From positions 41,943,366 through 42,007,365 of the forward strand of contig CAIIXF020000001.1 in NCBI GenBank assembly GCA_903813345.2: 64,000 bases of DNA, read 5' to 3'. The stretch's first letter is position 1. Each line of letters starts with the position of its first letter. Of this stretch, positions 7,862 through 50,441 are shown in pieces. Source of the stretch: Owenia fusiformis. Lineage: Eukaryota > Annelida > Polychaeta > Sabellida > Oweniidae. The notes under the pieces were generated by a model, which saw only the letters and a list, made by a program, of their open reading frames with translations, did not search any database and was not told the origin of the DNA. A program made the position numbers and the translations under genes.

Positions 7862-9741
7862 GCACAGCTCCCGATAGGCTAAAGGGCGATAGAAATTTAA
7901 TTTCCACATGACAATAAAAGTTCTATCTCTGCTGCCATCTTTATATCGGCATTCAATCTACGGTTATTTTAATCTTGAATATGAACTTTTGCCCCAAGAC
8001 TGTATATATATATGAATTTAAGCATAAATGAAGTCCTTTGAAGAAGGATGCTGTAGCCCTCCCCTTTTGTACCTCACCAGTACAACTGTTATGTAGGTTT
8101 CAAGGGTCTTCAAGCAAGAGTACGGGATTAGTTCTAGAACTATTGTTTAAGAGAAAGGCGTGTTCAAAAAGTTCACCATATCGATACCACTCCTTTAAAA
8201 AGATGCCCAGTAACGCTACATTGCCATCTAAATTATTGGTCAATTTATGGAGGGAGAAGAAGATTTGGAGCCCTTAAATCTTTGGGAAATTTTTCCCCTA
8301 GCCTCCATATCTGCCACTGTGGAATCAGTATGCAGTGGGACTACATTCCCAGTGATGGGGTTTGTTGCTAGCTGCTGATGTTAAAAATAATCGCATCAAA
8401 CCTAAATGTCACAATCGTACATTCATAACATTCTGAATTAAGACTTTGATAAATGATACACGAACAGTTCCCATTAATAAATATCCAATTTGAATAATTT
8501 GCTCGTCTGTTGAGACATATTAATAAACATCCGGTTGGTAATCTAAGAATGTCAAATACAATGATGAATTTTCTCTCTTAGACTAAATATTGTCTCTTGT
8601 CGTTTGGGTTGTCTTTTCACTGAATTATGACTTGACGTTGCAATAGAGATTCCAATTAACAATGGCATCTGAATAAACTGCTTGTATTTGCTATGATTGA
8701 TTTGTCTCTTAAGACTAACATATGACAATGTGTCAATGTCAAAATAAATTTACTCTTTCGAAATGGATTGTTTGGAACATGTTTTTATCGGTATTTGCAA
8801 ATAATACACCACACCTCTCCATAAGTTTGGTTTGAGCCAATCTATGTTTGAACTTTAGGAATACAAACTCTTCGGATGATTTTTTGAAAATTTACCATTG
8901 TTGAAATTCACTATTAGTGCTGTTAACTATATTAACCATCTTGACTAGATAGAGGCAACAAAAAGCTCTAAAAAGCAAGCCCCATATCACTGGCGAATCT
9001 GGGGGGGGGGGGGGGCATAAAAATTGGGCTCAAAAACAATTTGGGCCAAGAAAGGCCTTAAAGTCCCAAAAAGTGAGCCTTTTTGATTTTTAATTTTAGG
9101 CCAAAATTTCGATCGATAGATGGGTCCAGATATGTCTTTGAGGGACAGGATAGATTGCCACATGAAATGCATTCCCGAAGGCAGACTATTTTGATTAAAT
9201 GTACACCAGTAAACCGTGTGCATCAGGAGTAAAAATAATCCCAGATTATACCTGCTTCTATATCTGAAATAATCTTGCATCAAGCCCACATTACCCTCAA
9301 TTTCTTTCATACACAGAGGGATGCAATGGCTTGATGGACGAGAAATGATGGTAAATTGTGAAATAAAATGTTGATGTCAGACGGAGTGCAGGATAATGGA
9401 CTGTTCTTAGTGGTTACGTCTTAAAACTTTAAATAAAAGATATACTACCACTTAACGAAGGCAGGATTAATACATCAACTGCCATTATCTTCCTAACTTA
9501 GGGGTGACTTGGGAAAAACAGATCACGGGGCAAGAAGAGACACTCCATTTTCTCAGCGCTTGTCCAGATGACAACGTTTGTCAATGACTTGATCAAAGGT
9601 TGCGTCAACAAATGCAAATGCAAATTGTAGACGCCGAGAATCATAAGGACCAACTTAAAGGTCCATGTGCAGTATGGCAAGTGGTTTTAGACGGTCATAT
9701 CTTTCAGCATGTAGAGTACTTTCTGGTCATCAATACTGTGG
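7862..9741. other. intergenic, no gene seen
   Basis: No supported gene. Contains a fragment at 8812-8830 (CACCTCTCCATAAGTTTGG) related to the end of the MITE at 49,125, and a G15 run at 9001-9015. Open frames here lack any recognisable protein. Confidence 0.5.
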
Positions 9742-10312
9742 TTTTTATTAAAACAATATGTTTTCTTTCACGTGAAGTCCCCATGTTAGTAAATTATCAA
9801 TCCAACTTTCTGAAAAATTATGGATTAGGACCCCACATTGGCACTTTTTTTTAAAAATGTTAGGCGCATTTTCTAAAACGAGGATCTTGTTTTTCTCAAT
9901 TTGAACATATCAAAACTTTCTTCTACACTATACTAACAATTTCTGAAAAGGGGATGTGTATTGAAATGCGTTAAAGTTAAAAACCACATAGCCCATATTA
10001 TTTTCCCATAGGGAGAATTCGTGCTATCCATTGTTTTCAGCATAGTTTTGGTCATCGAAAATGGATATCTTCAAAACTAGACTTTCAATACCATTCTACT
10101 CTTGAAGAAGTTTAGACCCCTTGTTGAATAATCTTTTCATGCAATAAAAACCAGAAAAAGAAGAATTTCTTTTAACAGTTTGAGTAAATAGGTTCAACAT
10201 TTTGAAAAAATGTTGATATGGGGTCCCTTTTAATAATTTTCGAATTGTTCGATTGATATTTTTATCATTATGGGTACTTCACTTGAAAGAAAACATATTG
10301 TTTTATTAATAA
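9742..10312. mobile_element. long palindromic foldback element
   Basis: The left arm (TATTAAAACAATATGTTTTC, then TTCACGTGAAGT) is repeated inverted at the right end. The arms diverge in the middle. The core around 10,000-10,090 (CCCATAGGGAGAATTCG, ATGGATATCTTCAAAAC) matches the cores of the palindromes at 31,736 and 38,851, so it is a diverged member of the same family. Confidence 0.65.
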
Positions 10313-10477
10313 CAAGGTCAAACGTTAATCAGAATATCAACACTCAACTACATCCTTCGAAATCGGTCCTTCACTGCTTTCATAGCAGATCATTAATGTA
10401 ATGCAATGAATTACTCTTGGGCCAAGGATGACTCAACTATTCTACTACTGGTTAATGAAAATACAGAATGAAATCCT

Positions 10478-10548
10478 GATGTGAGGGCAACCCCAGTGCG
10501 GATCGAACCCACGACCCCTCGCTTACCGTGCGATTACATGACGTATAT
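10478..10548 (-). mobile_element. tRNA-derived SINE relic
   Basis: On the minus strand a B-box-like GGTTCGATCC is followed by GCACTGGGG, and preceded by GCGAGGGGTCGT. A similar segment occurs at 49,885-49,960. Only the tRNA-like 3' half of the head is recognisable; no intact A box was identified. Confidence 0.45.
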
Positions 10549-10564
10549 GACAATGAAATGGCTC

Positions 10565-10580
10565 TATCCCAGCAAACAGT
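10565..10580 (+). repeat. left terminal repeat with TA flank
   Basis: TATCCCAGCAAACAGT. The first 9 bases are the exact reverse complement of the right end at 21,862-21,870, and the match continues as AACA after one mismatch. Short terminal repeats of this length are compatible with a DNA transposon end. Confidence 0.6.
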
Positions 10581-10719
10581 GACGTCCATGTAACGTCACT
10601 CATATGTGGTATATAAGTTCACTGGAGACGTTGTATATTTCCGTTATATGAACGTCAAAGCAACGTAAAATTGTGACATTCAGCAAAACGTCGGTGGATG
10701 GTTAAAAAATGACGTTGTA

Positions 10720-12980
10720 GTAATGTGTTAGTAAAGTTCGAAATTTGTGCTGGTGTGAAAAACGTAACAATGACGTTGAATTTTTACCAGTTTGGTTCAT
10801 TTGCAACGTAATACAAACGGTAAAATTTAACGTTGTCGTAACGTTTTTTAAATGTGTAAAATATTTGTAAGTGCAGGAAACATTACAAAGACGTTGCAGT
10901 TCTCACCAAATTGTTTCATTTGCTACGTAATATAAACGGTAAAATTTGACGTTGTCGTAACGTGTTTTAAATGTGAAAGATATTTGTAAGTGTAGAAAAC
11001 GTTACAAAGACGTTGTGTTCTCACCAAATTTGGTACATTTGCTACGTAATGTAAACGGTAAAATTTGACGTTGTCGTAACGTGTTTTAAACGTGAAAGAT
11101 ATTTGTAAGTGTAGAGAACGTTACAAAGACGTTGCACTTCTCACCAAATTGTTTCATTTGCTACGTAATATAAACGGTAAAATTTGACGTTGTCGTAACG
11201 TGTTTTAAATGTGAAAGATATTTGTAAGTGTAGAAAACGTTACAAAGACGTTGTGTTCTCACCAAATTTGGTACATTTGCTACGTAATGTAAACGGTAAA
11301 ATTTGACGTTGTCGTAACGTGTTTTAAACGTGAAAGATATTTGTAAGTGTAGAGAACGTTACAAAGACGTTGCACTTCTCACCAAATTGTTTCATTTGCT
11401 ACGTAATATAAACGGTAAAATTTGACGTTGTCGTTACGTGTCTTAAATGTGAAAGATATTTGTAAGTGTAGAAAACGTTACAAAGACGTTGTGTTCTCAC
11501 CAAATTTGGTACATTTGCTACGTAATGTAAACGGTAAAATTTGACGTTGTCGTAACGTGTTTTAAACGTGAAAGATATTTGTAAGTGTAAAAAAACGTTA
11601 CAAAGACGTTGCACTTCTCACCAAATTGTTTCATTTGCTACGTAATATAAACGGTAAAATTTAACGTTGTCGTAACGTTTTTTAAATGTGTAAAATATTT
11701 GTAAGTGCAGGAAACATTACAAAGACGTTGCAGTTCTCACCAAATTGTTTCATTTGCTACGTAATATAAACGGTAAAATTTGACGTTGTCGTAACGTGTT
11801 TTAAATGTGAAAGATATTTGTAAGTGTAGAAAACGTTACAAAGACGTTGTGTTCTCACCAAATTTGGTACATTTGCTACGTAATGTAAACGGTAAAATTT
11901 GACGTTGTCGTAACGTGTTTTAAACGTGAAAGATATTTGTAAGTGTAGAAAACGTTACAAAGACGTTGCACTTCTCACCAAATTGTTTCATTTGCTACGT
12001 AATATAAACGGTAAAATTTGATGTTGTCGTAACGTGTTCTAAATGTGAAAGATATTTGTAAGTGTAAAAAACGTTACAAAGACGTTGTGTTCTCACCAAA
12101 TTTGGTACATTTGCTACGTAATGTAAACGGTAAAATTTGACGTTGTCGTAACGTGTTTTAAATGTGAAAGATATTTGTAAGTGTAGAAAACGTTACAAAG
12201 ACGTTGCACTTCTCACCAAATTGTTTCATTTGCTACGTAATATAAACGGTAAAATTTGATGTCGTCGTAACGTGTTCTAAATGTGAAAGATATTTGTAAG
12301 TGTAAAAAACGTTACAAAGACGTTGCGTTCTCACCAAATTTGGTACATTTGCTACGTAATGTAAACGGTAAAATTTGACGTTGTCGTAACGTACGTGTTT
12401 TAAATGTGAAAGATATTTGTAAGTGTAGAAAACGTTACAAAGACGTTGCAGTTCTCACCAAATTGTTACATTTGCTACGTAATATAAACAGTAAAATTTG
12501 ACGTTGTCGTAACGTGTTTTAAATGTGAAAGATAATTGTAAGTCTAGGAAACGTTACAAAGTCCTTGTTTTCCCACCAAATTGGTTCATTTGCCACGTAG
12601 TGAAAATGGCTAATTGTAACGTTGTCAAAACATGGTTTGAATGTGAAAAATATTTGTAATTGTAACACACGTTACAAAGACGTCATTTTCTGACCAAAAT
12701 GGTTCATTTTCAACGTAGTGCAAACGGTTAATTTCAACGTTGTCGAAACGTGTTTTCAATTGAAATGTAAAAAAATATTTGTAAGTGCAGGAAACGTTAC
12801 AAAAAGACGCTATGTCCTCACGAAATTGGTTTATTTGCAACGTTGTCGAAACAGTTCATTTTGACGTTGACGAAACGGGGTTTAAACGTGAAAAATACAT
12901 ATACATGTATGTGAAAAAGAACGTGACAAAGACGTTGTGGTCTCAACAAATTCGTTTAATTTGTGACGTGAAGTAAATGT
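10720..12980 (+). repeat. left satellite array, about 119-bp monomer, dimeric organisation
   Basis: About 18 tandem copies. Two alternating monomer types are seen in the core: one with CACCAAATTGTTTCATTTGC and TAATATAAAC, the other with CACCAAATTTGGTACATTTG and TAATGTAAAC. Same-type copies recur every 239 bp (for example 10,911, 11,149, 11,388). The core (about 10,850-12,540) is highly homogeneous and both edges are degenerate. Each copy carries AACGTTACAAAGACGTTG and GACGTTGTCGTAACGTG. Short open frames across it are by-products of the repeat. Confidence 0.9.
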
Positions 12981-13377
12981 TAAATATATAACGAATATAC
13001 ATGTATGCCTCGAGTTGTGGTAACTTTAAATACTGATCGGTGGAGGCACAGGCATATGTTGGCTCACACAGATGAACTTAACGTGGTAATTGAGAGTGAG
13101 AGTGGAAATATGATGTAAAGAAAACGTTTCTCCGACGTTGTAATTTTGCCATTGGTTATTGCTGACAAAAGTCTGACGTTCTGTCCCGGGGGGTTCATTC
13201 CAATACCTCTTAATACCTATGTGCCGCGCCAAAGACCCCCTTTTTGAGCATTTTTTCCATGTCAATTTCCTCTCAAAATTGGAAGTTTCCATGTATTATT
13301 CCTCTCAGAGTTATAAAATTCCATATTTTCTTCCTCTGAACTTCATAGATGTCCATGTCGACTTCCTCTGGAGCTTG

Positions 13378-13548
13378 CCGGTGTAAAAGAAATTATGGTC
13401 CCCTGGGGATTATGGTCTCCTTTCTTAAAGGCCCTTACTGGCCCTGATTGTGGATACGATAATAAGGGAGAGTTGTATTTAGGTCACCATATAAATCAAT
13501 GGAAAGTAGGACCATAATTTGATAGGACCTCCTACCCTTTTACACCGG
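13378..13548. mobile_element. short inverted-repeat element (MITE)
   Basis: Ends CCGGTGTAAAAG and its reverse complement CTTTTACACCGG. A second inverted pair lies inside (ATTATGGTCC / GGACCATAAT). About 170 bp, non-coding. Confidence 0.5.
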
Positions 13549-13559
13549 GACTAAAGTTT

Positions 13560-13840
13560 GCGAATTATCGGTAAATTGACTAAAACTCCACTCTTCCGGC
13601 GATTTGTCAGACCTCGGGACAAAAATTTTAGTCCCTTTCAACAAGGGCGAGCGTTACAAACGGAAAGTACATCGTTCGCAAATTTGATGTATTTCTCGTT
13701 CGGCTTTTTATCGTATTCTGTTCTATCAACCAATAGAAATAGAGGAATTCCCGCGTCGAAATCAACATGGAGGACAGTTCCAAGTTCAAGAATATTGCTG
13801 CTTAAAAGCAACTTGGGAGCCGTACTGCCAGCTTTCGAAG
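13560..13840 (+). other. possible first exon / promoter region of an unknown transcript
   Basis: More CpG-rich than its surroundings. Contains ACCAATAGAAAT (CCAAT-like) and then a segment ending TTTCGAAG followed by the donor GTAAGAATG at 13,841. An ATG in good context (AACATGG, 13,767-13,773) opens only 12 codons. Read as a candidate non-coding 5' exon followed by the exon-like segments at 15,719, 16,211, 16,712 and 17,232. Entirely inferential. Confidence 0.25.
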
Positions 13841-14314
13841 GTAAGAATGATGCATGCATGTTACACAATCACCAAAGGTTAAAATGAAAGCATGCCATGG
13901 CCGGTACTTGCAGCGAGAACACAAATAATCTCATGTGAAAGTTGGGATCGTTTCAATTTTCAAAATTTTTGTCAGTTGAAATTAGACTTTTGAATATTCT
14001 GATATTTGAATCGATGTTATTGATTTTCAATTTCATCACGATTTTCAATCATAATTCCTGGTTCATAATTTTCGTTAGGTCAATTACAAGGGGTCCAGGG
14101 GTCAATTAACCATCAGCGACTTTCAAGTCAGATCCGGTCCCTGGGATCTGGCGCAGAGGTGTTGATTGGATGGTGAAGTGTTTATGGCAAATGGTTTATG
14201 CAGTTATCTTGATGGTGATCTCTGTTAGATCTACCTCTTTCAAAGAATAGACATTGCCCGGGGAGTCAGTGATTGCCATCTTTAGCCTGATAGATAATCA
14301 TGATGGCAGAAATA

Positions 14315-14727
14315 CATAATACACAAACATGTATCAGTTTCATATGCTTTAGAAAATGTACATGTTTGCGAACAAATAGTTCAGAAGACAATAGAATCGT
14401 CGATTTAATTCCTCACTTAAGTTACATAAACGGTTTTTTCGAAAAACAGTTAAGATCTGCACTTTTAACCCGAACCGCTTGTGTAACTTAAGTGAGGAAT
14501 TAAATCGATGATTCTGTTGTCTTCTGAGCTATGCCTATTTTTCGCAAACATGTTCATTTTCTAAAACATATGATGCTGATACATGTTTGTGAGAAAAAAT
14601 GTTGTGGGGATTCTGCCTACAATGCGTGAAATAAGGAAAAAAGAAAAATCGTACCTTCGACGTTCCGACATTTTGTTACCAAAATGAACCGTTTCGGTAA
14701 CCAGTGTAATCGAGCGGATCACCAGTG
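14315..14727. mobile_element. truncated MITE, same family as 61,656-62,192
   Basis: The right end (GTTACCAAAATGAACCG ... GATCACCAGTG) and the inner hairpin (CTCACTTAAGTTACATAAAC and its inverse) match the complete copy at 61,656-62,192. The left terminal segment is missing, so it is a 5'-truncated or rearranged copy. Confidence 0.7.
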
Positions 14728-14975
14728 AATAGATAGCATACTATATTTAGGGAGTTCTTTAATTTTTTTGAAAATAACATGGCAGAGAAGCATTGAAATA
14801 TGAGGTCACAGATATGATAGCTAAACTACAAAACAAACTAAAATAAACAAAAGTAAGAACATGTATAAATGTTTCTATTTTTACATGTTCTGTTTCAATG
14901 TGGTCCTTTAATTGCTTATTTTTTAGATTCAGAGAAGTTCCAAACATTCAAAATTTTACTGTAATCTCATCTTCT

Positions 14976-15135
14976 CTACGACCCCCACTTAAATTTGTAA
15001 AAAACATAAGTGGGGGTAACCAAACTCGTCTGGCCCTGTTATCCACTCCCTGATTCTGAAATGTCGTAGACCAACAGCGTCAGGCGTAGATAACTGGGCC
15101 ATACAGGTTTTTGTTAAAGTGGGGGTAGAATGCGA
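14976..15135. mobile_element. short inverted-repeat element
   Basis: Ends CTACGACCCCCACTTAA and TTAAAGTGGGGGTAG, with an inner inverted pair GGCCCTGTTATC / GATAACTGGGCC. A smaller hairpin (ACCCCCACTT ... AAGTGGGGGT) sits in the left arm. Non-coding. Confidence 0.5.
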
Positions 15136-15254
15136 TAAATCGCATGATGTATGGTCTCTCTAAAATTCTCTTATTTTTAACATGGGAAATCGTCACTTCA
15201 GCAAATTCACATGTCATTTATTTATGTTCCAAAATTCACCCTATGCAGACAGAG

Positions 15255-15475
15255 CCTGTGGGAAATATTGGGTGCGGAGCAAATGAGCGGAGGGTGCTGA
15301 GCTAACGGTCATTTTTGAAAAAAATCTTTCAAAATCATGCAGTTTTCACCATTTTGAGCACTTCTCAAGTGATTTTGTCCATATTTTATGCCAAAATTGT
15401 CAAATGTGAACCCCCCCTGGAAATTTTTGAAAAATGAACCCCCCTTGGCAAATCCTGGCTACGGGCCTGATTATT
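15255..15475. repeat. dispersed-repeat fragment with C-runs
   Basis: Contains GTGAACCCCCCCTGG and GAACCCCCCTTGGC, then TCCTGGCTACGGGCCTGA. From memory this resembles an end fragment of interspersed repeats common in marine invertebrate genomes. Family unassigned. Confidence 0.35.
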
Positions 15476-15718
15476 GATATTTATATTTTTTAATCGAAAT
15501 GTTGTTTGTTATAAGCACACGCCTTTTAACAATTGATAGAGACTGAAAAGTGTATATCATCTTCAGCAAATCTGAAATTAAGCTTTGTTTTTATTGATCG
15601 AATTCAATGAAAGTTAATTTCTTTTAAGTTAAGTTAACTTTTATCAGCCTTTAAAAAAACTACTATTGTCATCTGTTTTTCCATCTTAGTGTACAATAGT
15701 TCTCTACTCTGTTTTCAG

Positions 15719-15813
15719 AAGTAGGAGATGAACCAGATTTTTGTAGCTTTCATCCATGATAACCCTGAGACCTTGTTGGTTGTGTTTAGATGATGGTGTT
15801 TCATACTAATCAG
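15719..15813 (+). other. exon-like segment, duplicate A
   Basis: Preceded by a good acceptor (CTACTCTGTTTTCAG) and followed by CAG|GTATAT. About 180 bp, including the polypyrimidine tract, are repeated at 16,165-16,310. The shared core is CATGATAACCCTGAGA. No convincing open frame across both copies, so either a non-coding exon or decayed. Confidence 0.3.
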
Positions 15814-16210
15814 GTATATTATTTCATCGTTTGATTTAATTAACTTGCATCATTTGTGGCTCTTTGCTTCAGAAAGTATTCATGTGTATTTAATGCAGTT
15901 ATTATTTAACTTTCACAGTTTCACAGCAAATGAGATACTGTAAATTGCTTTAATTTGGTGCTATTTAATTTGGCGCCCTGTGCAAATTTTAAAAGTATGA
16001 CTGCTATATAATTAAGTTATTTTAAAAGGTTTGAACTTAATCCTGATTGACACAATGTTAAAACATCTCAGTAGATTTACTCATCATATTCACAATTTAA
16101 AGGTCTTATCTTAATCAATACAATTTGAAATAAAAGTATAAAATAAAGTAACAGTCTTTTAAAGTACTACTATTGTCCTCTATTTTCCCATCTACCTATT
16201 CTGTTTTCAG

Positions 16211-16287
16211 GATTGTTGTAGCCTTCACCCATGATAACCCTGAGATGATTTTGGCTGTGTTGAGATGAGTGGTGTTATGCTAATCAG
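16211..16287 (+). other. exon-like segment, duplicate B
   Basis: Acceptor ATTCTGTTTTCAG and donor CAG|GTAGGC. It matches duplicate A about 480 bp upstream, with the splice-site-like edges retained in both copies and the interior more diverged. Confidence 0.3.
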
Positions 16288-16711
16288 GTAGGCCTATATT
16301 ATTTCTAGAGGTGTCACACTGACCCGAAGTTGACCTGCCATATTTTATCTCAGAAAGTTAAGAGTCATTCTCAGGTATCTACTTTCCTACCGTTCCAACA
16401 TTTCAAATTATTATCCAATAGAATATTTTAATAAATAGATCTCTAGTTAAATCATTGGATGAAGATTATGAGAGTCAACGAAGGAATGTTTTGGCTATAT
16501 GATTCTACTGTAGAAATACAAAAGGATAGTACAAAAAGCTACTAGGGATCTATAAACAGATGAGCATAGGGATTGTTTTACCCCAGAGTAGTCCCAAAAA
16601 GTCTCCTGAGACAAAGAACAGATCTGGTGGAAGAAAGATTACACCCTCAGGTGCATTTTCAGATAACCAACTAATAAAATGTTTATACTACAAGTCTCTA
16701 AAATATTTCAG

Positions 16712-16810
16712 ACAAACTAGCAGTACAAGCAGAATGGAACATTTGACGGTTTGGAAGTTAGGCAGTCTAGAGTCCTCTGAGCTTGGGGAGTTGCGAGGAA
16801 AGTGACTTCG
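16712..16810 (+). other. exon-like segment with strong donor
   Basis: Acceptor AAAATATTTCAG, 99-bp body, donor TTCG|GTAAGTCC. An open frame runs through it (EHLTVWKLGSLESSELG) but ends just before the donor. No protein family recognised. Confidence 0.25.
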
Positions 16811-17231
16811 GTAAGTCCAGGTTAATCTATTATTCATTATAGAAGTATTTTATATATATTAAGTTTACAGCAGAATCAAATCTAGCAAGATCCTTGTCAT
16901 TCTATTCTAAAAATATAAAGTGCAGACTTTACTTCAGGAATACTAGAGTATTTTACCAAAGAATTTTACAATTATGTATTTTATTTTATATATATGGCTT
17001 CCATATTTATATTTGGAAGAATTTAAAAATTTTCCCGATTTTCGCACTTTTAATCCTCAATAACTTACTGATTTACAACACATTGTAGACTTTTGAGACA
17101 TATTGTATCTGAGATTGTAAAGAATAGATCGCTAGCTCAATTTTGGTTGAAAATGACACTGCAAAATATACAGAGTGGGTATGGGTATACAGGTTACATT
17201 TCATACTTTTGAATAGATTGATTTTTTCCAG

Positions 17232-17334
17232 GAAAATGTCCAAAAACAAGCAGAAATGGCAATGTGTTAAACATGCAACCAGGGAAACAACGACTGAGCT
17301 GTACAAGTCATTTGAAAAAACATTTGGAAAGTGA
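17232..17334 (+). CDS. small possible coding exon, 32 residues
   Basis: Acceptor ATTTTTTCCAG, then an ATG at 17,236 (AAAATGT context) opening a 32-codon basic frame that starts MSKNKQKWQC and ends KTFGK before TGA at 17,332-17,334. It would be the last member of the exon-like chain inside the large element. Unrecognised, and short enough to be chance. Confidence 0.2.
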
Positions 17335-17828
17335 TGAGGACCAATGAGAGCTCATGCTTTCAAGGAAAAATGAACACTTAGCATAAACAATATCTGTTCC
17401 GAGAAGCAAGCCAGTTTGAATTAAATTTTTATCTCTATGACAAGTAACGGGACAGTTTAAGATTGCATAGATATAATGGCTTCATATCTGAAACATGCAA
17501 TTTTTCTAGATTTATTCCCAACTTAAAATGGTCATTATTGCTTTTTGAAAATCAATACCATGTTAACTAATAGAGCATTTGTTCAAGCTCAAATTAGAAT
17601 ATTTATTCATTCCCGTTCAGAAAAATAACAATATAACCCCTAAACAGTTAGGCTATAGATAATTACATTCATAGTAAAGGGGGTGAATAGATTTGCCGAG
17701 ATCTGGGCACAATCTTGGAAATGAAATATCGAAATATCATCAAAGTTAATCCCATACTTAGTAGTGTTATAGGTAAATAACATGCGGGAATATAATTGAT
17801 ATCTGAGTTGAGCGGGAGATATACAAGG

Positions 17829-17967
17829 GTTATGTACTGGGAGGTTTTGGATACAGGTTTTATCCCAAGGGAAATATGTGTATATCCCGACGGACCGCAG
17901 GGACCAAGGGATATACACATATTTCCCGAGGGATAAACCCTGTATCCAAAACCGACCGTACATAACA
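17829..17967. mobile_element. palindromic MITE
   Basis: The left arm GTTATGTACTGGGAGG, GGTTTTGGATACAGG and GGGAAATATGTGTATATCCC recurs inverted on the right. The loop is only about 20 bp. A diverged half-copy (GATGTTTTGGATATAAGG) lies at 45,240-45,300. Confidence 0.7.
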
Positions 17968-18610
17968 GATGTATTTCATACCTACTGATGTTCTTGGTAC
18001 GTCATATACCTTATAAAGTTCCAAAATTCAAAAATATACTTAAGATACACATTTTCTTGGTGTTTTAAAGTGGTTTTTAAGTTTCTGAGATTATCAAACT
18101 CATAAATGTGAAAATCTTTTTTTTAGAAATGTGAAAAAAAATTTGGGGAAAAATGGGAAATTTCAATGCATATTTAATTCTCATAATCTACTAAGTATAG
18201 GATAAATCAGTTATTAAATGCTCGATTTTTGATACAGTGTATATCCCTAAGTAAATACTATATAGTCACGATTTATTAGTTAAAATATGCCTAATTCAAT
18301 TTTAAGACAAGCCAGAACGGCAAATCTCCCCTGCCCCTTAACCGTTTAGGGGTTAATAAAATACTCAATAAAACTTATTAACGATAGGATAGATTTTTGA
18401 TAGATGACATACGAGACTGTAATTATATTTAAGTTCAATTCTGTGTGTCAATATTCTCTATTTGGATGCTCAAAAAAGTTCTTGTGTATTAACTGTTAAC
18501 TCATTAATTATTGGAAAAACAATATACATTTGTTAATAAGTCAAAGCATAAGTTAGTTGTGTTTTACCTTCACATGTGAAAATGTTAGGCTTAGTGTGTT
18601 ATATTTAGAG

Positions 18611-18724
18611 GTTATGTCACTATCGTGGCATATATGCCCGAGGTCTCAGTGATATATGGCCCGACCTTGGGAGGGACATTGATCTCTGAGAACCGAGGGC
18701 ATATGTGCCACGATAGTGACATAA
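18611..18724. mobile_element. palindromic MITE
   Basis: GTTATGTCACTATCGTGGCA is inverted at the right as TGCCACGATAGTGACATAA, and CATATGCCC-type sequence continues inward. Directly abuts the element at 18,728. Confidence 0.6.
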
Positions 18725-18727
18725 ACG

Positions 18728-18984
18728 ATTTATAACATACCTATGATGATGTAGACTGGTCAGAGAGTACCGTTTTCTTATACAATTGACAAACAAATGG
18801 TTTGAAAATGATTGAAAAATAATTTAGAAAAATTGCTCGCGCAGTTTTATCTTCAATTGATTGGTTATGACGTCAGCGCCTTGACCAATCAGAAAGTTAG
18901 CGGGCGCGGGCTTTTCAAAACTTATATTGGCCCGCTGTCTTGTGTACACTTTGCACTATACATCATCATAGGTATGTTATAAAT
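18728..18984. mobile_element. 257-bp inverted-repeat element
   Basis: Ends ATTTATAACATACCTATGAT and the inverse ATCATAGGTATGTTATAAAT, extending to about 28 bp. The interior is GC-richer and includes TGACGTCA (CRE-like) near 18,868. It marks the start of the right satellite array. Confidence 0.6.
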
Positions 18985-18989
18985 AATTT

Positions 18990-21825
18990 TACTGAACATT
19001 AGTGTCTACATCTTCCTGTACAGGAACTTTAAATTATGTTCATGTAATGATTCATTTAACTGGACGTTAGTCATTACTATCACTATATCTTGTTGATGGC
19101 ATAATTAAGGTTACTAGAACATTCCTTGCATGTGTTGTCCTAACTTGATGTAACCAGAAGTTATGAATTTGCCATGTATGTGACAAGCACGTTACAGTCT
19201 CTTTATTTTGGCAAAGTCGTTGTTAAGGTTGGTACTACATTCCTGGCTCGTGATATCTAAGTCGAACGTAACTTGTATACTCATTTATGCGTGTCCACAC
19301 TTTCCTTTGCCTACAACGTTCTATAGTTAATGTTACCAGAACTTTAACTTGGCCACGTATATGTGACGTTGCATTAGCACGTTACAGTCTGTTATTTTAT
19401 TTTTGCAGTCATTGTTAAGGTTGCTACTACATTCCTAGCACATGATATTTAAGTAAAATGTAACGTTGTGTAAACATCTGTGCGAGTCCAGACCTTCCTG
19501 TGCCTACATCGGTCCAAGACAAACGTTACCAGAACTTTAAACTGGCCAGGTATATGTTACGTTGCATAAGCACATTACAGTTTCACTATTTTTGCGAAGT
19601 CATTGTTAAGGTTGGTTCTACATTCCTGGCACGTAATATTTAAGTCAAATGTAACGTTCTTTAAACATCTGTGCGAGTCCACACCTTCCTGTACCTACAA
19701 CGTTCCATAATTAACGTACCAGAACTTAAAACTGGCCACGTATATGTGACGTTGCATAAGCACATTACAGTCTCGTTATTTTTGCGAAGTTATCGTTTAG
19801 GTTGGTTCTACGTTCCTGGCACGTGATATTTAAGTCAAATGTAACGTTCTTTGAACATCTGTGCGAGTCCACAACTTCCTGTACCTACAACGTTCCATAA
19901 TTAACGTATCAGAAATTTAGATTGGCCACGTATTTATGACGTAATGTAAGTACGTTACATTTTCGTTATTTTGGCGAAGTCATCGTCTAGGTTGGTTCCA
20001 CGTTCCTGGCACGTGATATTTAAGTCAAATGTAACGTTCTTTAAACATCTGTGCGAGTCCACACCTTCCTGTACCTACAACGTTCCATATCAACGTTACC
20101 AGAAATTTAGATTGGCCACGTATATATGACGTAATGTGAGTACGTTACATTTTCGTTATTTTGGTGACGTAATTGTTAAGGTCGCTACTACGTTCCTGAC
20201 ACGTGATATTTAAGTCAAATGTAACGTTCTTTAAACATCTATGCGAGTCCACACCTTCCTGTACCTACAACGTTCCATATCAACGTTACCAGAAATTTAG
20301 ATTGGCCACGTATATATGACGTAATGTAAGTACGTTACAGTTTCGTTATTTTGGCGACGTAATTGTTAAGGTCGCTACTACGTTCCTGACACGTGATATT
20401 TAAGTCAAATGTAACGTTCTTTAAACATCTGTGCGAGTCCACACCTTCCTGTACCTACAACGTTCCATATCAACGTTACCAGAAATTTAGATTGGCCACG
20501 TATTTATGACGTAATGTTAGTACGTTACATTTTCGTTATTTTGGCGAAGTCATCGTTTAGGTTGGTTCTACGTTCCTGGCACGTGATATTTAAGTCAAAT
20601 GTAACGTTCTTTAAACATCTGTGCGAGTCCACAACTTCCTGTACCTACAACGTTCCATATCAACGTTACCAGAAATTTAGATTGGCCACGTATTTATGAC
20701 GTAATGTAAGTACGTTACATTTTCGTTATTTTGGTGACGTAATTGTTAAGGTCGCTACTACGTTCCTGACACGTGATATTTAAGTCAAATGTAACGTTCT
20801 TTAAACATCTATGCGAGTCCACACCTTCCTGTACCTACAACGTTCCATATCAACGTTACCAGAAATTTAGATTGGCCACGTATATATGACGTAATGTAAG
20901 TACGTTACAGTTTCGTTATTTTGGCAACGTTATTGTTAAGGTCGCTACTACGTTCCTGACACGTGATATGTAAGTCAAATGTAACGTTCTTTAAACATCT
21001 GTGCGAGTCCACACCTTCCTGTACCTACAACGTTCCATATCAACGTTACCAGAAATTTAGATTGGCCACGTATTTATGACGTAATGTAAGTACGTTACAT
21101 TATCGTTATTTTGGTGACGTAATTGTTAAGGTCGCTACTACGTTCCTGACACGTGATATTTAAGTCAAATGTAACGTTCTTTAAACATCTATGCGAGTCC
21201 ACACCTTCCTGTACCTACAACGTTCCATATCAACGTTACCAGAAATTTAGATTGGCCACGTATATATGACGTAATGTAAGTACGTTACAGTTTCGTTATT
21301 TTGGCAACGTTATTGTTAAGGTCGCTACTACGTTCCTGACACGTGATATGTAAGTCAAATGTAACGTTCTTTAAACATCTGTGCGAGTCCACACCTTCCT
21401 GTACCTACAACGTTCCATATCAACGTTACCAGAAATTTAGATTGGCCACGTATTTATGACGTAATGTAAGTACGTTACATTTTCGTTATTTTGGTGACGT
21501 AATTGTTAAGGTCGCTACTACGTTCCTGACACGTGATATTTAAGTCAAATGTAACGTTCTTTAAACATCTATGCGAGTCCACACCTTCCTGTACCTACAA
21601 CGTTCCATATCAACGTTACCAGAAATTTAGATTGGCCTCGTATATATGACGTAATGTAAGTACGTTACAGTTTCGTTATTTTGGCGACGTAATTGTTAAG
21701 GTCGCTACTACGTTCCTGACACGTGATATTTAAGTCAAATGTAACGTTCTTTAAACATCTGTGCGAGTCCACACCTTCCTGTACCTACAACGTTCCATAT
21801 TTAACGTTGCTACAACTTGAGACAT
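18990..21825 (+). repeat. right satellite array, 190-bp monomer
   Basis: About 14-15 tandem copies. The landmark CACACCTTCCTGTACCTACA recurs every 190 bp (19,680, 19,870, 20,060 ... 21,770). The left side is degenerate and copies become nearly identical towards 21.8 kb. From about 20,630 rightwards GTGCGAG and ATGCGAG variants alternate, giving a 380-bp dimer. ACGT motifs (AACGTT, GACGTAAT, CACGTA, GTACGTTAC) recur in every copy. Confidence 0.9.
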
Positions 21826-21861
21826 ATATTCTGACGACGTTATCACAACGTAAAATTGTTA

Positions 21862-21870
21862 GCTGGGATA
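21862..21870 (-). repeat. right terminal repeat of the large element with TA flank
   Basis: GCTGGGATA, the exact reverse complement of TATCCCAGC at 10,565-10,573. It lies 66 bp before the exon at 21,937. Confidence 0.6.
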
Positions 21871-21936
21871 ATAGATAAAGCTGGTATTGTATACGGATTG
21901 AATGCTAATTTTGTTGAATTGATTTAATCTATTTAG

Positions 21937-22430
21937 GTGGTTGGCGAGAATGGGACGCACCATCCGGGTACTTCCACAATGTCAGTGTGACCTCTATGGA
22001 GAGGTTCCTACCGGAGCCGTACATCCTTGAACCAGGTGTGAGGTGGAGGGATTCCCCAGGGGCGGCGGGCAGATGGTACTACTGGAAGCTACCCACGGAT
22101 AGGGTGACCATTTGGAGCAGATTGTTCATGTGGATAGCCTACTTTGGACACCAATTGACAATTTGGTGCGTCACTTACGCAGCACAGATGGCAAAGGCTT
22201 CACGACCAAAAGGAGAGCCAAAGTATACTGTAAAGATGGATCGGTTCAACTGGATTTCCCTTGGCCTAAACGTTGTGTTTCATATTGTTCATTTCGTCAA
22301 TACGCACACTACTTACGATGGTATAGCCCAAGATACAGTAACTGCAAGTTCCCAGGGGTCGGTGATAATGGCCATCGGACTAATATTATTTATGGAATAC
22401 AAGTGCGTGATACAGGGGTTGCCATTTTAG
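21937..22430 (+). CDS. exon of an unrecognised multi-pass membrane protein
   Basis: The acceptor ATCTATTTAG is followed by an open frame of 163 residues after two bases finishing a split codon: GGWREWDAPSGYFHNVS, then LPEPYILEPGVRW, then at least three hydrophobic segments (about IWSRLFMWIAYFGHQLTIWC, WISLGLNVVFHIVHFV and GSVIMAIGLILFM). Tyr/Trp/His-rich hydrophobic segments separated by charged loops (ASRPKGEPKYT) indicate an integral membrane protein. The frame ends CVIQGLPF-stop. A donor-like GTGCGTG near 22,407 suggests that the last eight residues may be intron read-through and that another exon once followed. Upstream exons were not found; the large element occupies the preceding 11 kb, so they probably lie beyond it or are lost. 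Codon quality and length argue for a real exon. Family not recognised. Confidence 0.65.
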
Positions 22431-22631
22431 TAAAGGGTGTAAATACGTTTCTGTGCTTGATACAGGGTATATTTAATGGAAAAGGTTAAATTATGATGTT
22501 GAATTATTGGTGTCTATCATATATTTAAGAACTGCCATCTATATATGAATATAAAGTTTAAATAACTAACGTGAACAAAAGATTAATGAGATTCTGATTG
22601 TTTTGTTCTGAGAATGCTGCTGCCATCTTTG

Positions 22632-22637
22632 AATAAA
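22632..22637 (+). terminator. possible polyadenylation signal
   Basis: AATAAA about 200 bp after the stop of the membrane-protein frame. Consistent with this being the terminal exon, but AATAAA is frequent by chance in DNA this AT-rich. Confidence 0.3.
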
Positions 22638-22704
22638 CTCTAAATTATCAATGATATAATTATAATCTATTGTGATAACGAACACCTCCCAATCTTAATG
22701 TTTT

Positions 22705-23420
22705 TAACTGCACGGTGGCATTTGGATTAGACAGGTTTTACTGTATGAGTAATAGTAATACTGAAATTAAAAAAAATCTGAAGGCCTAGTCAATCTATTT
22801 TGGGAAATATTCTCAGCTATTTGAAATGAAGATCAACTTTGTAAGAAGTCTCTATAATTATTTTTTTAATTTATACAATAACATTATACTCAACTTTAGT
22901 TCAAATTCCAATGCTCTGGCCTTGGCTAATCAAAACAGTTCAATTGTTTCATCAATTATTATATTATTATATTAATATATCATAATTATTTCACATGCAA
23001 ATACTGTACTGCCACTAATATTTGATGCTGTTATCTTTCACAATTTTGCAATTTTGAAATTTTGCGGATATCAATTTTCGCTAATTATAAATTTTTTATA
23101 ATTTTGTATCTATTTCTTTCACCATCATATCATTTCTCAAAAAAATTTCCAGCTTATTTGATTAAATGTTTTTAAAACCAAGAAATATGAATGAAACAGT
23201 ACCTTCTTACCTTTAATTATTGCTATACCATGTACTTAAAGCCTTTACATGACACCTATCAGCTATCACCTGCTTCAAAAGCATAGGTGAAACTAAACTA
23301 TTGAAATCAAGTGCTCACTTTAAATTTTTTTATATTTTCTGTTTGGGAAAATCTGTTAGTTATCAGCTGCATTTTTGTCAGTCAAGATTTCTCTTCATCA
23401 AACCAAATCAAATCCAAGGA
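22705..23420 (+). repeat. duplicated segment, copy 1
   Basis: Three blocks recur in the same order at 24,650-25,520: GGTGGCATTTGGATTAGACA; AATTCCAATGCTC with CACATGCAAATACTGTACT; and CAGTCAAGATTTCTCTTCAT. Direct orientation, offset about 1.9-2.1 kb. Non-coding. Confidence 0.6.
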
Positions 23421-39470: not shown

Positions 39471-40988
39471 AATTCGATTTTAAACAAAATGATGTACGAT
39501 TCATAAAATATGAATGGCTGTTGATGACTCCATGATTGTTTTCGTATCATGAGGCAGTAACAGTCGAAAACAAGATTTTGCTATATTTTTTAGCTTATTA
39601 TAATATCGCAATGTTTAATCAACACTTTTAGGCCTTTACATAAAGAATAAGTATTGGAGTTAAGTTTTACTGGTTGTAAGTCATTTATTACCTCTAAAAT
39701 AATCATGGGATCTATTTTTATGCATTGCAGTTCGTTATAAAGTTAGATTGTTAGATAAATTGATATTTGCTTCAAACATGGTTTGCAAAGAAACTCGTCA
39801 TTACTCATGATATGGAATAAATTTCCATTTTTTCCTTTTCTGATGCCTATAATTGATTTGTGTGCCCTTTAAAATGTAAGTTAAGTTATATAAGTACAAC
39901 CTCATTATTGCCCATCTCGTGATAATTTTAGCCCCAAATAGGTATTATCTCCAAAATGTCTTGAAAATTAGTAAATATTTAACTATTTGATACAGATTTC
40001 ATTACATCATTTAGGCTATATTACAAATACTTATCAAACTGGTAAAATAACTCAATTATATTGCATTTGTAAATCAATTTTCTTTCATTTGATATATAAA
40101 TCAACAATTTTGACCCTTTATAAGTAGAATTATATCCCCAAACCTAACATAGGATGATATCCGTCTGGTCAGTTCTAAGTAGCATTCTGTATTCAGCGGT
40201 AAATCATGATTTTGACCCCATGGTTATCGAAATAATAATTTAAGACAAATACATATTTATATGGAAATCATCTTGTTGGAAAATTGAATTGTTTTAAAAT
40301 GATATTAAGTTTGAATAATTGTCTGTAATATCAACAACGTTGAAGCAAAACAAAAACGTGGACGCTTTTTGGCCCACCCTGTATATGAACAAGTAGCAGA
40401 ATCAAAGGTAAAACCTCAAACATCATCAAAGTGGAACACCCAATGATGTAATTAAGGACTTCTTTATTTATGCCTTTCCAAGTTAATGCTCCCCCTAATG
40501 ACTAGATAGTCAGACAAACAAATTTGATTAGATGTTGTTTACTGATGTTACACATTTATCAATCGTCTAATTCCATCTTATTACGTTGTGACATAATGTA
40601 ACACTGGGGCACCTTGACTTATTTTCAAGTTTTGTAATCACAACACACCTTATTCGTTGGATCTGTCGGTACTAACAAGTTTTTATGATTTTATTTGGTC
40701 ATTATTTAGGTAAAAAGAGATACAGGGATAGGGGTATTAAATCAAGCCTAAGATTGACACATGTTATCAATCATTGAGATAGGCCTGTATACAGGAATTC
40801 CTTTTACTAATTTTCATGATTATAATTACTGATTATAAAGTTGGTAATATTTTCACATTTTATGGGAACAAATACACATTATGGTAGAATACACATACAA
40901 ATGTGAAAAATATCACCCCTTTCATTGATTATGAGTAATTATGATCATGAAAATTAGTAAAATAAATCTAGTCATACGAACTTCCTTA
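39471..40988. other. intergenic, with an orphan transposon end
   Basis: AT-rich with no gene. A solitary right terminus ACGCTTTTTGGCCCACCCTG followed by TA lies at 40,362-40,383, related to the ends of the element at 43,469-44,331. Confidence 0.5.
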
Positions 40989-41128
40989 TGCCTTGGTCAC
41001 ATTTGCTCCGATTCATCGGCCGGCGCCCGGCCGATTGAGTATCCTGTTCACAATTGTATTCAGTTTTGAACAGAATACTCAATCGGCCGGGCGCCGGCCG
41101 ATGAATCGGAGCAAATGTGACCCAGGCA
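40989..41128. mobile_element. 140-bp palindromic MITE with TTA target duplication, PIF/Harbinger-like
   Basis: Ends TGCCTTGGTCACAT / ATGTGACCCAGGCA, flanked by TTA on both sides. The arms continue as GCTCCGATTCATCGGCCGGC and CGGCCGATTGAGTAT almost to the centre. A second copy of identical length is at 50,302-50,441. Confidence 0.8.
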
Positions 41129-49960: not shown

Positions 49961-50301
49961 ATCTTTTTATAATGAAATACACCTGATATGAAGGTTGTAC
50001 GCTGATTAAAAACAGCCAATTTGATTCAAGTGTTAGCATCAGTGAAAAAAACTGGGTTTTTAGACCAAACACAGATGTATAGAAAAGTAGAAATTATCTG
50101 GAGGCGTAATTGGAACTTTGTGTTTCTTTGCGAATGTGACTGTATATAATTTAATCTTAAACATTTGCCCAATGGACGATGTTATTTGATTATGCTAAAC
50201 CATGCTAATAAAAAACTTCTTCTGGGTGAACAGTTCCGTAATTCAAAATCTGGTCATTTTTCACTTCCACAAATTTTGTCCGGTTTTTGTTCCTCTTGTT
50301 A

Positions 50302-50441
50302 TGCCTTGGTCACATAGGCTCCGATTTTCACTACGGCGCCCGGCCGATTGAGTATTTTGTTCAAAATTGAATACAATATTGAACAAAACACTCAATCGGC
50401 CGGGCGCCGGCCGATGGATCGGAGCATATGTGACCCAGGCA
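50302..50441. mobile_element. 140-bp palindromic MITE, second copy
   Basis: Same ends (TGCCTTGGTCACAT / ATGTGACCCAGGCA), same length and same TTA duplication as 40,989-41,128. One arm has CGATTTTCACTACGGCGCCC where the other arm has the GGCCGGCGCC form. Confidence 0.8.

Follow-up and report, generated by a model that had tools for sequence, protein, structure and literature searches.

A 64,000-nucleotide stretch of the genome of the annelid Owenia fusiformis, here called the window, contains a segment of about 11 kb whose two ends carry different tandem satellites, both packed with the palindromic word ACGT. Is this segment one mobile element or two short ones lying side by side, and why do two unrelated satellites hold the same word? 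Searches of the 498-Mb genome (525 contigs), within which the window lies, indicate that positions 10568–21867 are almost certainly one large non-autonomous cut-and-paste DNA transposon of about 11 kb. The element is a member of a young, gene-poor family with several dozen recent copies, and its satellites may act as arrays of protein-binding sites.

Ends, pairing and empty sites

The element begins with CCCAGC. Because the base preceding CCCAGC differs among copies (T, A, C or G in 51 left ends), we place the boundary one base inside that of a first-pass annotation of this DNA, which had described an element at 10567–21868 with TCCCAGC termini; the inverted termini are confirmed, but the first T belongs to the flank. 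The terminal inverted repeats (TIRs) are 11 bp long, CCCAGC[A/T]AACA, with one mismatch between the ends. The left TIR, CCCAGCAAACA, occupies 10568–10578 on the plus strand, as supported by the variable flanks of the 51 left ends and by two sets of empty sites, and the inverted right TIR, CCCAGCTAACA, occupies 21857–21867 on the minus strand. The target site duplication is AT, with its left copy at 10566–10567 and its right copy at 21868–21869.

The two ends pair throughout the genome. The left end was searched with a 35-place pattern allowing at most 3 mismatches (210 genome matches, 100 listed) and the right end with a pattern of its own (94 matches, all listed), while reversed control patterns for both ends gave no genome match. 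Of the 100 listed left-end matches, 49 were set aside, judged by their flank, as the flank of a miniature inverted-repeat transposable element (MITE) or a near variant of it. Among the matches listed, 47 of the 51 other left ends are followed on the same strand by a right end, at a distance of 9.0–26.5 kb (median 11.3 kb for the 47 pairs). For one of the 51 the right end lies in the wrong order, and no partner on the opposite strand occurs within 40 kb. This excludes the case, raised in the first-pass annotation as fatal to a single element, that the ends never pair elsewhere. An exact 2-bp duplication flanks 37 of the 47 pairs, as compared with a mean of 7.0 and a maximum of 16 in 5000 shuffles of the partners. 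The exact duplications read TA (11), AT (7), AA (6) or other dinucleotides (13), so that the fixed TA flanks described earlier are replaced by two bases of varying sequence; this tally used 75 of the 94 right-end matches, and the pairing test used all 94.

Two arrangements of ends stand apart from simple pairs. At C12:27292743–27314782, a minus-strand left end (27314782) and a minus-strand right end (27292743) enclose a plus-strand right end (27312079); here one copy has probably inserted into another. Contig C446 carries six identical right ends at a spacing of 7.5–11.7 kb with the same flank, TATACAGGTAA, and these repeats are a tandemly amplified segment containing the right end of the element.

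Movement of the element is directly visible at its empty sites. The flanks of the window copy, joined by a single AT, match C10:16136533–16136806 across the junction. This paralogous empty site, found where allelic ones had been suggested as a check, reads GGCTCTAT-AATAGATAAAGC and contains neither array nor core. It aligns with about 390 bp of the window flanks with few differences besides about 19 extra bases at one place and a 2-base gap, and the alignment ends on the left beyond window position 10430. Window positions 10430–10567 and 21870–22120 are almost the same in sequence as their C10 paralogue at about 16.136 Mb, and to judge from this likeness the target region of the window insertion has recently been duplicated. 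In addition, a copy on C7 (C7:37650362–37663999, duplication AA) is inserted in a MITE whose relatives in the window carry AA once. Two such relatives provide empty paralogous sites of the form GTGACC-AA-GGCAT, at 40988–41000 and 50301–50313, both on the minus strand. Because the empty sites hold neither array nor core, both arrays and the core arrived together, and recently. The family thus displays two features of a class II element, namely TIRs with a target site duplication and precise empty sites.

Ten further copies were fetched and compared with the window copy, giving 11 in total. Long core segments are about 98–99% identical to the window in six of them (L019, L021, L025, L027, L033 and L035) and 94.6–97.3% identical in the other four (L017, L023, L029 and L031). 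Parts of the core are missing from some copies, and length above about 10.5 kb is due to inserts found in one or few of the 11. A copy on C5, with 24.9 kb between its ends, duplication AC, and 7.4 left and 6.5 right monomers, represents a sister subfamily as judged from its aligned ends, which are 88–91% identical to the window. It also carries an insert (L059, C5:13226500–13236400) with a 429-aa P-loop ATPase-like open reading frame (ORF) that has weak AAA and Adeno_IVa2 matches, below cut-off; this insert is possibly Polinton/Maverick-like.

ACGT in the two arrays and its conservation

A single-copy terminal region that includes the left TIR (10568–10758, plus strand) is already ACGT-rich, with 7 ACGT in 191 bp. 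It is followed by the left subterminal satellite at 10759–12897 (plus strand), which consists of 17.9 copies of a 119-bp monomer according to Tandem Repeats Finder (TRF). On the other side of the core (12981–19060, plus strand), which is mostly common to the 10 other fetched copies, TRF defines the right subterminal satellite as 13.8 copies of a 190-bp monomer at 19185–21808 (plus strand), and a single-copy right terminal region (21809–21867, plus strand) closes the element. Across the 11 copies, the arrays measure 10.9–17.9 monomers on the left and 9.8–14.8 on the right (TRF).

Both array sides are about 16-fold enriched in ACGT. The left array part (2414 bp) contains 98 ACGT and the right array part (2808 bp) 110, whereas the 6080-bp core has 7 and the remaining 52,698 bp of the window have 131. 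Similarly, 98 of 140 CpGs in the left array region and 110 of 158 in the right lie inside ACGT, against 131 of 1284 outside the element. The left consensus monomer has 5 ACGT versus a dinucleotide-shuffle mean of 2.4 (P=0.022), and the right one has 9 versus a mean of 3.3, a count reached in none of 5000 shuffles. Alignment of the two monomers scores only a little above that of shuffled sequences (direct score 63, shuffle mean 45.5, P=0.012; inverted score 62, shuffle mean 46.9, P=0.052), and on this sequence comparison their homology is not convincing. The picture of two end arrays with monomers of 119 and 190 bp, not alignable by eye yet both packed with ACGT, is therefore borne out. On the left, the words around ACGT are a mixture of GACGTT, AACGTT, AACGTG and TACGTA.

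The C5 sister and a captured relative of the left end provide two comparisons of how well ACGT persists. From C5 to the window, ACGT is kept at 38 of 39 sites on the left, as compared with 620 of 1025 other 4-mers and 11 of 27 other NCGN words; on the right it is kept at 45 of 46, as compared with 853 of 1222 and 18 of 30. The captured relative lies in the MITE whose flank marks 49 of the 100 listed left-end matches, all with a constant flank or near variant, AAAATAATCGAT, ahead of CCAGC. At the two loci read, L057 (reverse complement 352–1322) and L058 (604–1562), this otherwise unrelated MITE is about 970 bp long with inverted ends of its own, GGGTTTGTGTAAAAAACCGGG..., and contains a relative, about 68–76% identical, of the left end of the element together with its first monomers; to judge from the constant flank, the MITE with its captured relative would exist in many copies. 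From this relative, at 74% identity, to the window, ACGT is kept at 14 of 20 sites versus 175 of 573 for other 4-mers. Between the two MITE copies themselves, no ACGT excess is seen (19 of 24 versus 525 of 626).

Since the monomers of an array are homogenised, a test on monomer columns is fairer than word counts. In the left monomer, conservation at the ACGT columns exceeds that at other positions: none of 118 rotations matches it, and random placements give P=0.0067. Taken together, the evidence for enrichment is good and that for selection on the left is moderate, while the right array displays enrichment with one-way retention only.

The core and the search for an autonomous partner

The core holds little coding sequence, and no ORF longer than 123 aa is found in the core sequence shared by the 11 copies. 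Several stretches of window positions 13555–17340 look exon-like by eye (about 15719–15813, 16211–16287 and 16712–16810, with splice-like borders), with a splice-like donor after 13840 and acceptor before 17232; the pieces at 15736 and 16211 are alike, being 84% identical. A weak candidate, drawn by eye, for the final exon of a transcript that would be short or non-coding lies at 17232–17334 (plus strand), where it follows ttttttccag, contains a 32-codon ORF (MSKNKQKWQ...FGK) and has a similar counterpart in the C5 sister copy. A spliced, mostly non-coding transcript from this part of the core is possible. An insert of about 365 bp with palindromic arms at 18605–18967, a nested element, is confined to the window copy among the 11. 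An Rfam search of window positions 9500–23000 and a tRNA scan of the whole window gave no match.

No autonomous copy was identified among the copies read, which exclude about 12 kb of the middle of the C5 copy and the other copies with more than 16 kb between their ends (on C10, C6, C4, C11 and C3). None of the longer copies compared was taken as autonomous, their extra length being inserts whose scanned portions have no Pfam match; an autonomous copy may lie hidden among the others. Another family of this genome, of EnSpm type and with a PF02992 transposase, has recently multiplied: its nine copies are nearly identical, and their 359-aa query matches do not differ (e.g., C1:24242424). The family has a 608-aa open frame and was noted at L062 1394–2341 and 2495–2552 (C1:24243500–24248500). 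Its right terminus, CCCCGGCG, is GC-rich and ends in GGGG (inverted, CCCCGGCGAAATGA), and a satellite of 6.2 copies of a 152-bp monomer lies directly inside this end; the left end was not reached. This array is built on GAAGAA-type 6-mers, with 0–3 ACGT per 500 bp. With another terminus, another motif and none of the element's right ends within 100 kb, the PF02992 family was rejected as the autonomous partner.

Other families with the same TIR were sought with the pattern CCCAGCWAACAY..ACGT, which gave 4 sites versus 10 for the reversed control. Two of the 4 (L052 and L053, position 1501) have the same flanks, read CCCAGCAAACA...GTAACGTTAACGTAC and precede a stretch that looks coding; they resemble either a solitary end of some age or a relative that has diverged. 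An EnSpm-type terminus pattern was too loose to be informative (307 sites versus 468 for its control).

Proposed role of the arrays and comparison with known systems

We favour, as probable, the reading of a non-autonomous transposon whose subterminal satellites are arrays of putative protein-binding sites, and a binding-platform role of the ACGT arrays is in itself reasonably likely. A transposase supplied in trans would cut at the CCCAGC ends; this transposase, or an accessory DNA-binding protein, would first occupy the numerous sites centred on ACGT in the two arrays, and the loaded protein would bring the two distant ends together. In doing so, the arrays would work like the subterminal repeats of En/Spm or the THAP sites of Galileo, as the cited excerpts describe them (PMC2613891, PMC3688188). 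On each side, tandem duplication would have multiplied a different ancestral stretch that already held ACGT sites, which we propose as the reason that two unrelated monomers share one word. Array length would then be free to vary, matching the observed range of copy number. More tentatively, this may be a type of transposon in which each end has made a satellite of an unrelated stretch and both satellites stay saturated with a single palindromic word. Many low-specificity contacts with an ACGT-binding protein may then replace a precise terminal site, in which case ends would be recognised by density, not by sequence, at a level set by array length.

A number of our own observations weigh against this account. 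The exact 2-bp duplication is absent in 10 of the 47 pairs. No transposase was recognised, in agreement with the first-pass annotation: a six-frame Pfam scan of the window core gave nothing above cut-off (best match SHP, E=0.0066, 16.5 bits versus a cut-off of 27), and six-frame scans of one large insert each in L017 (3.3 of 4.7 kb), L031 (3.2 of about 4.5 kb) and L035/L036 (all 4.0 kb) gave no Pfam match at E<=0.01, the smaller inserts of these copies and the inserts of L019, L021, L023, L027, L029 and L033 lying outside these scans. None of the 34 EnSpm-transposase matches has one of the 94 right ends within 100 kb. The flanks of ACGT are mixed, on the left as listed above and likewise in the right array (AACGTT, TACGTT, GACGTA, CACGTA and CACGTG). 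Site counts within a homogenised array are not independent. From the window to C5, ACGT is kept at 38 of 47 sites on the left, against 608 of 993 other 4-mers and 11 of 18 NCGN words, and at 43 of 57 on the right, against 845 of 1202 other 4-mers, where NCGN words (18 of 22) exceed it. Furthermore, the right monomer has no such excess of conservation at its ACGT columns (41 of 189 rotations do as well; P=0.24). The selection for ACGT proposed in the earlier reading is thus supported by better retention from C5 to the window, but is weakened by the right columns and by the reverse direction.

The same arrays could be passive satellites, formed if the ends were ACGT-rich by chance and were amplified by replication slippage or unequal exchange, the word having no role. 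Such an origin would agree with the free variation of array copy number (left 7.4–17.9, right 6.5–14.8), the lack of a conservation excess in the right-array ACGT columns and the ACGT-richness of the left single-copy end. We nevertheless regard it as unlikely, as the enrichment is common to two monomers without convincing homology and ACGT outlasts other words, CpG words included, from both the C5 sister and the captured relative to the window. Less likely still, the arrays may serve host factors, as promoter or enhancer of a non-coding core transcript, as decoy or as chromatin signal: ACGT is the core of bZIP- or bHLH-like host transcription factor sites, and the exon-like core pieces with splice-like borders seen by eye are consistent with this role, but the mixed bases around ACGT are unlike a single host motif. 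A chance juxtaposition of two independent short elements, each possessing a second terminus of its own, has next to no probability. Some ends do lack a partner: this holds for 4 of the 51 on the left and, relative to the left ends among the matches listed (100 of 210), for 47 of the 94 on the right. But this explanation is rejected by the pairing of 47 of 51 left ends, the matching duplications, the one common core and an empty site that has neither array.

With several dozen young copies, variable array lengths and a sister subfamily, the family amounts to a natural experiment on transposon end recognition. Further assets are the near-identical empty site and the unrelated MITE with a captured left end, in which the motif may decay freely. 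The element also illustrates a way in which satellites can originate within a transposon and be dispersed along with it.

For the putative transposase acting in trans, CMC-like is our leading guess at the superfamily, although a doubtful one. As far as the cited excerpts go, CMCT elements have duplications of 2–5 bp and mostly 5'-CA..TG-3' termini (PMC12730594), and one CACTA element known from an animal duplicates 2 bp (PMC6004678). The 2-bp duplication of the element falls in this range, whereas its termini are CCC..GGG and not CA..TG; the right end of the PF02992 family likewise has GGGG. A CMC consensus of CMCWR would fit the CCCAG terminus. Transposases of the CMC group (EnSpm, Mirage, Chapaev and relatives) are DDE enzymes with C(2)C/H(3-4)H motifs, and no EnSpm-type match was seen in the 100 kb around any of the 94 right ends.

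P-type elements make longer duplications. Galileo, of the P superfamily, has several binding sites for the THAP domain of its transposase in near-end tandem repeats, but these repeats lie inside long TIRs and are the same at both ends, whereas the arrays of the element differ between ends (excerpts of PMC3688188). In maize Spm/En, the accessory protein TNPA recognises subterminal repeats, and soybean Tgmt* has asymmetric ones; the element resembles these CACTA/EnSpm transposons in its short TIR, asymmetric subterminal repeats at both ends, large size (20.5 kb for Tgmt*) and the existence of defective derivatives, as far as described in the excerpts of PMC2613891. It differs, by the same excerpts, in having CCC..GGG instead of CACTA termini, no recognised transposase, a 2-bp duplication instead of the 3 bp of Tgmt*, and kilobase satellites of 119- and 190-bp monomers instead of motifs of 12–20 bp (PMC2613891). 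ISL2EU, of the PHIS group, is similar in its 2-bp duplication and AT-rich targets, AT being duplicated within A|AT|T in the excerpt cited, but was rejected because this AT-only duplication contrasts with 30 non-AT sequences among the 37 exact duplications of the element (AA, TA, AC, TC, TG and others; PMC4482050). In addition, CCCAGCNAA is absent from the 15 YqaJ loci searched, each spanning about 3.4 kb and perhaps too short to reach the ends of the elements they belong to. ISL2EU elements have genes for a THAP transposase and a YqaJ exonuclease; the core of the window copy has no Pfam match, as would also be expected of any non-autonomous copy.

The PF02992 family resembles the element in its GC-rich right terminus and right subterminal array and differs in motif and low ACGT content; because it has such an array, a motif-dense satellite beside a terminus is not confined to the ACGT family. 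Among the listed titles and abstract beginnings of the open-licence literature, no element with two different, motif-sharing end satellites was found. As partial accounts describe them, the CACTA element Jozin has a satellite near its 3' end (PMC8978399), and oyster Helentrons and Drosophila Tetris are mobile elements with tandem arrays (PMC7492417, PMC4079207). By comparison with these three, the element is distinguished by two unrelated arrays, one at each end, that have one palindromic word in common.

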